DNA of 64,000 nt from an uncultured Methanobrevibacter sp. (GCF_902784195.1 NZ_CACZTX010000001.1:310001-374000), one strand, 5' to 3'; positions 48,476-51,920 are shown, counted from the first letter of the stretch. Numbers and translations are program-made. The notes: generated from the sequence alone by a model not told the origin.

Positions 48476-49570
48476 TTATTCATAAGCGCTTACAGAACGA
48501 GTTGCCCTTGTAAATTCATCAAACAAATGGTCGATTTCATCATCTGACTCGGTATCAACTTGAGAAATGTTGAGAACCAATTCTTCAGACAACTTGTCTA
48601 AACCTTTAATAATTGAATTTAACAATAAAAGCTTGTTTTTAAGCTCGTCCTCTACTTTTGTACTGTATTCAGTACTTAATTCAAGAATATTATATCCTGC
48701 ATTCAACTGGCTATAGAATGTTTCATGAGAATCATCAACAACTCTCTTGAATCTTGAATAAGTCAATTGAGGAGGAGCAAATCTCTTTTCGATTAACTCT
48801 AAAGTGCTTTTCTCCTTTTTAGGATATAATTCCTCTAACTCCTTAAAATGCTTTTCGTAAAATTGAAATGCTGGAATGACTCCTTCTTCAACCTTAACGT
48901 TAACAGATTCTTTTTCTTCTTGTTTTACTTTAGTATCGTTTGATTTAATTTTAAATTCAGCTTCTTTACTAGGTATCTCATCCCTTGCATACAATGGTTT
49001 AGGTTCACTTGCAATCATAATTGATCTGACTATGGATACGAAATAGAAAACAAATGCTAATTCAAATGCTACAGATCTAACAGGTTGAATACCCCAAGTA
49101 ATGAATCCTATAATCCAAGGAAGAGTGTATACAAGTCCTTCTGTTATCCGAGATTTCTTTGGACTTGTCTTTCCTTTATAAGCTAATCCAACACCATTCA
49201 ATATTGGGATAAAGGAAATCAAAACCCATAATGAATCAATGACATCATTCACTTTCTCTTCAATGCTCTTTTCAATTAGATTTGATTGGTCGAGCTGTTT
49301 TTGAAGAGTAAAATCTACCATAACGCTTCTGATAATTGATACAAATGACGCTAAACTTGCAATTGTGAAAAATAATGTTGCAACTCCAAGATTTGGCATT
49401 GTCATAATACCAAGAAGCCAAGGAACTTCATATAACAAACCTTCAATAAACCAGTTGGTGTTTCCATACTTGTTTCCTATATATACAAATCCTAAACCAT
49501 TAAACAATGGAATAAAGGAAGTCAAGACCCATAAAGAGCTTGTAATCTTTGAAAAAATAGTTCGTGTCAT
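48476..49570 (-). CDS. Membrane protein with duplicated FIPxxNG module, paralogue A
   Basis: A protein of about 364 residues of unknown family. The N-terminal half has four to six hydrophobic segments arranged as two copies of one module: SLWVLTSFIPLFNGLGFVYI with a following EGLLYEVPW, and SLWVLISFIPILNGVGLAY with EGLVYTLPW. A charged linker (residues about 195-235) leads to a helical cytoplasmic domain with LIEKRFAPPQLTYSRFKRV and FYSQLNAGYNILELSTEYS. The same plan occurs at 50868-51920. The start is ATG 49570 after AGGTGG; GTG 49579 is less likely. It is divergent from the potassium channel gene. Confidence 0.75.
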   Translation of the reverse strand: MTRTIFSKITSSLWVLTSFIPLFNGLGFVYIGNKYGNTNWFIEGLLYEVPWLLGIMTMPNLGVATLFFTIASLASFVSIIRSVMVDFTLQKQLDQSNLIEKSIEEKVNDVIDSLWVLISFIPILNGVGLAYKGKTSPKKSRITEGLVYTLPWIIGFITWGIQPVRSVAFELAFVFYFVSIVRSIMIASEPKPLYARDEIPSKEAEFKIKSNDTKVKQEEKESVNVKVEEGVIPAFQFYEKHFKELEELYPKKEKSTLELIEKRFAPPQLTYSRFKRVVDDSHETFYSQLNAGYNILELSTEYSTKVEDELKNKLLLLNSIIKGLDKLSEELVLNISQVDTESDDEIDHLFDEFTRATRSVSAYE

Positions 49571-49955
49571 AACCCCCACCTACAACTTTTTCAAATTATT
49601 CTTTATTTCTTTAAATTTTTAATTAAATATTTAATTAAACTTTTAGTTTCTAATAGTTTTAGTTTATAGTTTCTAATGTATTTGCAGGATATTTTCATAT
49701 CCTAAAGTTACTTTAATATTTTTAGTATATAAGGTTTTGTATTTATTTTTCAAAAATGTATACTTTTTTTAAATTTCATCAAAAACAACAATGATTTTCT
49801 ATAGCGTTTCTTAAAAATTCTTTAATTTTCCTAAATATTTCTTAAATATCTTAAATATTTCTTAAAAGATTGAATAAATTTATAATGAATAAGATAAAAA
49901 CTTTAATTAAGAATAAAAAAATCTTATTTTTTCAATAAAATATCAGAGGCATACT
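49571..49955. promoter_or_regulatory. Divergent regulatory region with palindromes, channel/paralogue A
   Basis: This 385-base spacer holds three structured elements: a perfect 20-base palindrome at 49619-49638 (TTAATTAAATATTTAATTAA), an exact 11-base direct repeat TAGTTTCTAAT at 49644-49654 and 49667-49677, and a hairpin AGGATAT/ATATCCT at 49686-49703 (loop of four). They cluster upstream of the minus-strand gene and might bind a shared regulator. The rest is AT-rich; an AGAGG ribosome-binding site precedes the channel. Confidence 0.45.
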
Positions 49956-50825
49956 ATGGGTTTATATCAAAATAATAGGTTTAATTTCTTTTTATCAATA
50001 TTAATAGTAATCGATTTGATCTTGATTACACTAACATTGATCTCCGATGTTGGAGAGATGTACTATAGCATAGTTGTCTTTGATACCGTCTTATGCATAA
50101 TCTTGCTTATTGAGTTTTTTACTCGACTAATGGATTCAGACAATAAGAAGCAGTTTTTCCTAAAGAACTGGACAGAGCTTATAGCTGCAATACCATTTGA
50201 CTTGATAATGCTCCCATTTGTATTGAACTATACACGTTTCTTAAGATTGCTTAGAGTATTGAAATTCATTAAGGTAATAGCGCTGTTTTCACAATTCTTT
50301 GAAACAATCGACGTTTTCCTAAAGAAGACTCATTTGGATGAGATATTCGGCATAACCCTTCTTGTTGTACTTGCATCAACTCTTGGATTATACCTATTTG
50401 ACCCAAGCATAAACAGCTTGTTTGACAGCCTTTGGTTTGTTCTTTCAACAATCACAACCGTAGGTTACGGTGACATCTTGCCTCAATCCGGAGTTGGAAA
50501 GATGATAGGTTTAATTATCCTGATTGTGGGAGTGTTGATATTCAGTACAGTTACAGGAGCTATTGCATCATACTTTGCAAGAAGGGTATTGATCAATGAA
50601 GACTTCAACATTACCGAACATGACGATAATATTGAACTTTTAAAAGAGGATTTGAGTTTCAATAAGAAGAATCTAAATGAAGTTCACGCCAAAGTGGATA
50701 AAATAGATAATGATGTAGAGTCTCTTAAAAAAGAATTAAATGAGTTAAAAGAGTTAAATAAAGAATTAAAACAAGAAATAAAAAATTTAAACGATAATTT
50801 GAAAAAGGATAATTTAAATGATTAG
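49956..50825 (+). CDS. Six-transmembrane voltage-sensor-like potassium channel
   Basis: The 289-residue protein has S1-S4-like helices and a pore domain. The S4 segment YTRFLRLLRVLKFIKV has a basic residue at every third position, as in voltage sensors. The selectivity filter is TTVGYGD near residues 168-173, followed by the inner helix. After about residue 215 the protein is a charged coiled coil (heptads KKNLNEVHAKVDKID, ELKELNKELKQEIKNL), which probably tetramerises it. It should conduct potassium across the cytoplasmic membrane. It lies between two paralogous membrane-protein genes, both on the opposite strand. Confidence 0.93.
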   Translation: MGLYQNNRFNFFLSILIVIDLILITLTLISDVGEMYYSIVVFDTVLCIILLIEFFTRLMDSDNKKQFFLKNWTELIAAIPFDLIMLPFVLNYTRFLRLLRVLKFIKVIALFSQFFETIDVFLKKTHLDEIFGITLLVVLASTLGLYLFDPSINSLFDSLWFVLSTITTVGYGDILPQSGVGKMIGLIILIVGVLIFSTVTGAIASYFARRVLINEDFNITEHDDNIELLKEDLSFNKKNLNEVHAKVDKIDNDVESLKKELNELKELNKELKQEIKNLNDNLKKDNLND

Positions 50826-50867
50826 GAAATACTATTTTTTAAAAAAAAAAGATGGTAAAAGATATGA

Positions 50868-51920
50868 TTATTTATAATCCTTTACTGAATTTATCAAATT
50901 ATCCATATTTGAGAACAATTCCTGTAGGTCCTCATCTGATTTTTCATTATCACCATCATGGATAATGAGTTCTTCTATAAGATTATTCATCTCATCATTG
51001 ATTGATTCCATAATGCTTATTTTGCCTTTAACAGTTTCATCTAATCTTTCACTGTATTCTGGAGCCATCTCAATAATGCTTGTAGCTGAATCAGATTGAT
51101 GATAGAATAGCTTATGGCAACTATCTATGACTGACATGAAACGATTATGACTTAATTCACCACTTTCAAACCGTTTATTGATTAATCCAGTTATATTGTC
51201 TTCTTTTTTATCAAAAGCTTGCTTTAGATTATCAATCTCATACTTATAGGATTTAAACTCAGGAATAATATCCACTACAGCGTTTTCAACTGGCTTCGGA
51301 CTCACTTTAGGTGTCGGTGCACTTACTACAGGTTGAGGTGATGTGGTAAACACCGCATTATCCATTCTCTTTTCCTCAAAGTAAATCATGATTGTTCTTG
51401 CAATTGACAAGATCCACCCAATTACAGCTATTGCAATGAAGAAATCTATTACCCCATTGGCAATACCATATATTATTAGATATAGAATCCAAAGGAACTC
51501 AAACAATGCACCTTCTATAACCCATCTTTGAACATTTCTTTTATATCCTACAATAATTAATCCTATACCGTTCAAGAACATGATCAATGAAAATACCATC
51601 CAAAATGAACTTGATCTTTTCCTCATTTCTGTAGAACTGCCCATCTCTTTCTTATAGGTATAAGATACATATAATGTCCTTAAAAGACAAATTAACATGA
51701 ACAATATCCCAAAACTTGCAATTGTAGTTGAAATGCCCTCATTAAAAGCAAATAAAAATTGCAAAAACCAAGGCAATTCATACACTAAACCTTCAATAAT
51801 CCAGTTCTTATTGGATTCCTTTGATCCCATATAAACAAAAGTCATCCCATTTAGAAAAGGAATGAATGAAACTATAATCAAAAAAATTTTTTCTAAAGTG
51901 CTAAAAGCAGATTTTTCCAT
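50868..51920 (-). CDS. Membrane protein with duplicated FIPxxNG module, paralogue B
   Basis: A protein of about 350 residues with the same plan as paralogue A: IFLIIVSFIPFLNGMTFVYM with EGLVYELPW, then SFWMVFSLIMFLNGIGLIIV with EGALFEFLW, a Pro/Ser linker (residues about 195-220) and the cytoplasmic helical domain with LINKRFESGELSHNRFMSV, FYHQ and EYSERLD. Like A it ends with an acidic helix containing an ED..LF motif. AAAGGGGG precedes ATG 51920; the frame extends to 51968 but without a better site. It is convergent with the channel (43 bases between stops). Unknown family, candidate channel-associated or stress-sensing protein. Confidence 0.75.
   Translation of the reverse strand: MEKSAFSTLEKIFLIIVSFIPFLNGMTFVYMGSKESNKNWIIEGLVYELPWFLQFLFAFNEGISTTIASFGILFMLICLLRTLYVSYTYKKEMGSSTEMRKRSSSFWMVFSLIMFLNGIGLIIVGYKRNVQRWVIEGALFEFLWILYLIIYGIANGVIDFFIAIAVIGWILSIARTIMIYFEEKRMDNAVFTTSPQPVVSAPTPKVSPKPVENAVVDIIPEFKSYKYEIDNLKQAFDKKEDNITGLINKRFESGELSHNRFMSVIDSCHKLFYHQSDSATSIIEMAPEYSERLDETVKGKISIMESINDEMNNLIEELIIHDGDNEKSDEDLQELFSNMDNLINSVKDYK

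Follow-up and report, generated by a model that had tools for sequence, protein, structure and literature searches.

TelA is a stress protein of bacterial resistance to tellurite and to peptides that attack the membrane. In the XpaC-TelA/YaaN operons of Bacillus and Listeria, a partner gene (PF10112) adjoins the TelA gene (PF05816). The xpaC-yaaN genes of B. subtilis belong to the core sigma-W envelope-stress regulon (PMC3498285), and disruption of the Listeria TelA homologue lmo1967 is reported to raise susceptibility 4-fold (nisin) and 2-fold (tellurite) (PMC12791056). In the account of Ter/TelA stress systems by Anantharaman, Iyer and Aravind, as summarised in PMC7824862, TelA is proposed to build sub-membrane structures together with membrane components. 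Here we describe two protein families, found in methanogenic archaea, that stand to TelA in a comparable genomic position, and we put both families, not described before, forward as partners of TelA.

The window analysed is a stretch of 64,000 nucleotides (GCF_902784195.1, NZ_CACZTX010000001.1:310001-374000) from a Methanobacteriaceae genome; contigs of the same genus carry the public label Methanobrevibacter, M. olleyae included. The gene order is uvrB-TPR-ORF123, P0001 (minus strand), a potassium channel (plus strand), P0002 (minus strand) and uvrC. P0001 (48476..49570, likely starting at the ATG at 49570) encodes a membrane protein of 364 aa with orthologues in at least seven other genomes of the genus. 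The channel gene, P0003 (49956..50825, 289 aa), is followed by P0002 (50868..51920, likely ATG at 51920), a second membrane protein, of 350 aa, identified from its reading frame, its paralogy, profile matches and an AlphaFold2 model. The original prediction of two paralogous membrane proteins of shared plan, flanking a channel of voltage-sensor type, holds well: both reading frames are in place, the two proteins share 30% identity from end to end (E 2e-58), and the arrangement is retained in six other species, several of the comparison genomes being incomplete metagenome assemblies.

Each paralogue consists of two N modules (membrane segments of 89 aa) and a single C domain (137 residues) that the alignment places at the very C-terminus, an order that we abbreviate as N-N-C. 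Profile matches, all with E 1e-30 or better, number two per protein for the N module, as foreseen, and one for the C domain. In P0001 the N modules cover residues 3-91 (49298..49564, minus strand, E 4e-38), alignable with single N-module genes adjacent to TelA, and 104-192 (48995..49261, minus strand, E 3e-35), and the C domain residues 227-364 (48479..48892, minus strand, E 4e-53; also supported by alignment), a four-helix bundle with an RFAPPQLTY turn. The corresponding segments of P0002, also on the minus strand, are residues 3-91 (51648..51914, E 4e-33), 96-185, with a degenerate motif (51366..51635, E 7e-31), and 214-350 (50871..51281, E 7e-57, with a predicted structure). A cytoplasmic KRF...RF..V pattern followed by an acidic end had also been pointed out. 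The pattern is indeed found, within the helix-turn-helix hairpin of the C domain, but the acidic stretch precedes the last helix, and the actual protein end is a conserved S-V-x-x-Y, which also terminates nearly all C proteins at TelA loci and whose final Tyr is invariant in the C-domain alignment.

The full-length AlphaFold2 model of P0002 shows confident modules joined by a flexible linker (mean pLDDT 80.9, pTM 0.44), and the C domain modelled alone is a predicted four-helix bundle (pLDDT 84.8, pTM 0.80). No Pfam or NCBIfam model covers either the N or the C part of P0001 and P0002. Foldseek searches with full-length P0002 and with its C domain gave no significant match among PDB or viral proteins; the best one, to Chlamydia IncA (E 0.17, TM about 0.5), we discarded as a common helical-bundle shape. 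The inner-membrane domain of MscS (PF12794) scores 12.3 bits in P0002, below its cut-off of 28. A known family such as TM2 (PF05154) had been suggested as the check on novelty, and the N module resembles it in being short and hydrophobic with an early N/G-rich kink; nevertheless, TM2 has no match in the genome of the window even at E 0.01 and single N modules have no Pfam match, and we rejected this assignment. PADLOC found no match for P0001, P0002, TelA or the zinc-ribbon C protein, and identity with a known anti-phage defence family was set aside too.

The channel, on the other hand, is by its sequence nothing unusual: it belongs with the KvAP-type Kv channels of archaea, and has a coiled coil added at its C-terminus. 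It matches Ion_trans (E 2e-16) and Ion_trans_2 (E 1.5e-14) as well as the KvAP structures 6uwm, 2a0l and 1orq (E 2.5e-23 to 8e-22), and carries an S4-like arginine helix. Voltage sensor, pore and TTVGYG filter are those of KvAP-type channels; the difference is the coiled coil of ca. 65 aa (about residues 222-285, 50619..50810, plus strand), outside the KvAP-matching region. Weak matches of coiled-coil type are confined to this end, and so are the PADLOC matches to the channel. The initial description, a voltage-sensor-like channel with a C-terminal coiled coil, thus needs no change.

The distribution of the two domains points away from the channel and towards TelA. Within the phylum, C domains are limited to Methanobacteriaceae (94 of 152 genomes), and in a collection of named genomes all 19 confirmed matches were from Methanobrevibacter, Methanosphaera or Candidatus Methanovirga. 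Every genome with N modules also has C domains (18/18, p = 2e-7). In relatives, C domains have companions other than N modules: zinc ribbons, further kinds of membrane segment, and UvrD helicase and PD-(D/E)XK nuclease domains, to which they are fused. In the genome of the window, a TelA gene (toxic anion resistance, PF05816, E 4e-64) lies ca. 27 kb upstream of the window start, and is absent from the P0001/P0002 locus itself; its cassette consists of a gene for a zinc ribbon plus C domain, and then TelA.

We collected TelA loci from 60 genomes of the family, 24 of them with flanks long enough to be read. A C-domain gene was found beside TelA in 21 of the 24 (20 strong matches and one weak), and the three exceptions all belong to one genus, with C genes elsewhere in the genome. 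With a search profile built solely from N-N-C proteins, single N-module genes (103-178 aa) were detected directly after TelA and on the same strand in seven genomes (E 1e-21 to 1e-29); this strict profile and the alignment both show that the N modules of P0001 and P0002 are shared with these genes. Three of the seven have the tight order C > TelA > N, with gaps of 17-21 bp between C and TelA and of -1 to 22 bp between TelA and N, while in the other four the interval from C to TelA leaves room for an extra gene of ca. 600 bp, which in the two cases read codes for a zinc-ribbon protein with one membrane segment. An intact N-N-C gene is part of the TelA cluster in L045 (genome G013), and on the Methanosphaera plasmid pNP174 an N-N-C gene, coding for a 410-aa protein headed by a zinc ribbon, stops 15 bp short of TelA. 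Adjacency to TelA is seen for N-N-C relatives in L045 and L167; it is not at the window locus.

Presence and absence across the 60 genomes tell the same story: C domain and TelA occurred together in 25 genomes, neither in 29, only TelA in one and only the C domain in five (p = 1.2e-10, a value that overstates the case, as the genomes are related and their presences and absences not independent). The sole genome with TelA only is 63% complete and its TelA is broken; among genomes at least 90% complete there was no TelA without a C domain (19/0/3/23). In genera g3, g5, g6 and g10 the two are jointly present or absent, with one exception. Against the link stand G012 and G015, in which we found the trio of P0001, channel and P0002 and no TelA, but these genomes are 86-87% complete. 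Searches of viral contigs and annotated phages gave no TelA homologues or very weak ones.

Since C genes lie beside TelA and N genes directly after it, P0001 and P0002 are, in domain composition, N-N-C fusions of two genes that bracket TelA in relatives. As in the XpaC-TelA/YaaN operons, the partner gene of the archaeal C-domain relatives adjoins TelA; in contrast to them, archaea have separate C and N genes on either side of TelA, or an N-N-C fusion at a distance from it. The C domain itself is not XpaC: PF10112 was not among the families listed for 36 scanned C domains, and in 45 family genomes nothing exceeded its cut-off, with no C or N locus even among the weak matches. The analogy is one of genomic position and not of family membership. 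Similarly, the archaeal loci share with the Ter/TelA stress systems the recurrence of helicase and nuclease fusions, and differ from them in that the N and C families are outside Pfam and NCBIfam and found only in Methanobacteriaceae.

A few observations on the neighbours of TelA may be added. The proteins L096:2616-3197, L090:667-1311 and L038:4109-4744 combine a zinc ribbon, one transmembrane segment and a probable extracellular domain; in one genus a gene for such a protein separates the C gene from TelA, and in G018 a relative (30% identity over 147 aa, E 2e-17) is encoded 35 bp upstream of the P0002 orthologue, which adds a third partner to the link with TelA. Another protein near TelA, of 88 aa, at first matched as an N module and was dropped when the match was lost under the strict profile. 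The Vibrio alfacsensis plasmid pSEA2 carries, directly upstream of TelA, an unannotated protein (L165:2973-3746) predicted to have two transmembrane segments and a helical cytoplasmic part. Its plan resembles that of the archaeal C proteins and it matches the C profile weakly (E 0.005), but an hhalign probability of 1.8% does not show homology, and the likeness is kept as an analogy only.

Because of the gene content, the domain architecture, the fusion and operon links and the co-occurrence, we consider that P0001 and P0002 are probably adaptors, anchored in the membrane, of a TelA-based envelope-stress system in archaea (Methanobacteriaceae), and most likely they belong to the TelA system first and only secondarily to the channel. 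The paired N modules would sit in the membrane and, where it is perturbed, might assemble or respond to the change. The C domain would bind TelA, or a TelA-like assembly beneath the membrane whose genes lie elsewhere in the genome, and in this way bring it to the membrane. By analogy, P0001 and P0002 may be receptors or anchors in the membrane to which TelA, alone or as an assembly, attaches. The channel would be a plausible local effector, with a potassium flux opened or closed on stress, perhaps through its coiled coil. A role in membrane stress had been among the first guesses for the locus and fits the association with TelA; channel regulation, proposed along with it, is not supported as the defining function. 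The C and N domains are found apart around TelA, fused together and, in the case of C, fused also to helicase-nucleases. This bears on how TelA works and could be approached with small constructs, the soluble 137-aa domain and TelA. It also suggests that rumen and gut methanogens carry a TelA-based envelope response, which may act on a potassium channel.

How the channel came to stand between the two paralogues is a separate matter, and the probabilities that we attach to the TelA reading and to the two readings centred on the channel answer different questions and are not intended to sum to one. Channel orthologues (identity of at least 62%) were found in 12 genomes of the genus. An N(N)C gene is directly beside the channel in nine, two more (G006 and G018) fit as far as contig ends allow, and G007 could not be read; no N(N)C neighbour was seen at any of 16 Kv-like channels that are more distantly related. 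In the oldest arrangement, that of G011 and G008, a lone N-C gene and the channel are divergently oriented. In the tree the single N-C protein of G011 sides with the P0001 clade, and a G011 copy located away from the channel belongs to that of P0002, so that P0001 looks like the older channel neighbour and P0002 like a separate and less stable one. By sequence the two are old paralogues, and the link between channel and N(N)C genes is one ancestral association in one genus, which has been retained.

The intergenic spacers bear on this point as well. Palindromes and a hairpin had been noted in the divergent spacer between P0001 and the channel (385 bp, 83% A+T). The number of hairpins, eight against a mean of 4.1, was reached by 24 of 200 dinucleotide shuffles and is within chance, but one of them, the imperfect palindrome GGATAT-N4-ATATCC at 49687-49702, does lie in a conserved block of 101 bp (49670..49770, minus strand) that six other species share at 93-98% identity. 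The block also contains a TATA-like element (49725-49731, read on the minus strand) and a 25-bp near-palindrome, GTATACATTTTTGAAAAATAAATAC (49739-49763). It persists, at 88% identity, in G010, whose locus has neither channel nor P0002, and therefore reads as the promoter region of P0001 rather than as an element shared with the channel, and provides no evidence for a channel unit. A shared operator was considered and abandoned: the hairpin occurs at one other site in the genome, and among the fetched loci the near-palindrome is found only upstream of P0001 orthologues, with none at TelA loci. The block is near-invariant across species amid a drifting A+T-rich spacer, a conservation in excess of what a core promoter needs.

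One explanation, compatible with the TelA reading, is that channel and paralogues are chance neighbours that share the conserved uvrB-uvrC interval with no functional link. We find it quite possible, if somewhat short of probable. The flanking genes show the same degree of conservation across the genus, G012 has the channel inverted, G010 lacks it at the locus, and the promoter block is P0001's only; yet wherever flanks were readable no channel orthologue was without an N(N)C neighbour, G011 included, where the region is no longer beside uvrC and the neighbour has been kept. These last facts, along with the lack of such neighbours at the 16 more distant channels, the divergent N-C gene of the oldest arrangement and the coiled coil in which the channel terminates, speak for P0001 and P0002 as accessory subunits whose C domains would bind that coiled coil and gate the channel on membrane tension or osmotic stress. 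Such a regulator seems to us rather unlikely, as the association goes back to a single event within one genus, P0001 and its promoter survive in G010 without a channel at the locus, N-N-C genes also occur without it in G013, G011 and Methanosphaera, and the reading frame of P0002 is broken in G016 and G004 (assembly error being possible) while the channel stays open. Besides, the C domain recurs with TelA and helicases and not with channels. The idea that the duplication around the channel defines a functional unit is therefore not borne out, and the co-occurrence check proposed with it singled out TelA, not the channel, as the recurring partner of the family. We regard as improbable an intermediate version, in which an archaeal TelA envelope-stress complex would control the channel directly: P0001 and P0002 would tie it into an assembly beneath the membrane that is linked to TelA, and would alter potassium flux on membrane damage.

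It is likewise doubtful that the C domain serves a defence or DNA-processing network as its general adaptor, with P0001 and P0002 as membrane effectors, instead of an adaptor in envelope stress: there are C domains fused to a UvrD helicase and a PD-(D/E)XK nuclease near TelA, and in another genus C proteins share a cluster with an AAA protein of CbbX type and a helicase resembling XPD, but most carriers of C domains have neither nuclease nor helicase, the PADLOC searches of the paralogues, TelA and the zinc-ribbon C protein were negative, and the helicase part resembles those of DRT and Gabija only through the common UvrD fold.

These fused and clustered forms deserve mention in their own right. 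The helicase-nuclease proteins, from Candidatus Methanovirga and a relative, end in one C domain (L049:10265-14053, 1262 aa) or in three (L050:9779-15745, 1988 aa; no Pfam match in its first 480 residues), and are a possible defence or DNA-processing arm. In another genus of Methanobacteriaceae (L168-L180 and L184-L186) a conserved cluster pairs a zinc-ribbon plus C-domain protein (ca. 360 aa) with a CbbX-type AAA protein that also bears a zinc ribbon, to which most of the clusters add an XPD/DinG-like helicase with a TPR end. Finally, the genome of the window contains a further membrane plus C-domain gene (G000:C2:210330-210682, L044:5779-6474), apparently broken, with its C domain spread over two frames; the copies of this gene in G005 and G013 (L181 and L182) are open.
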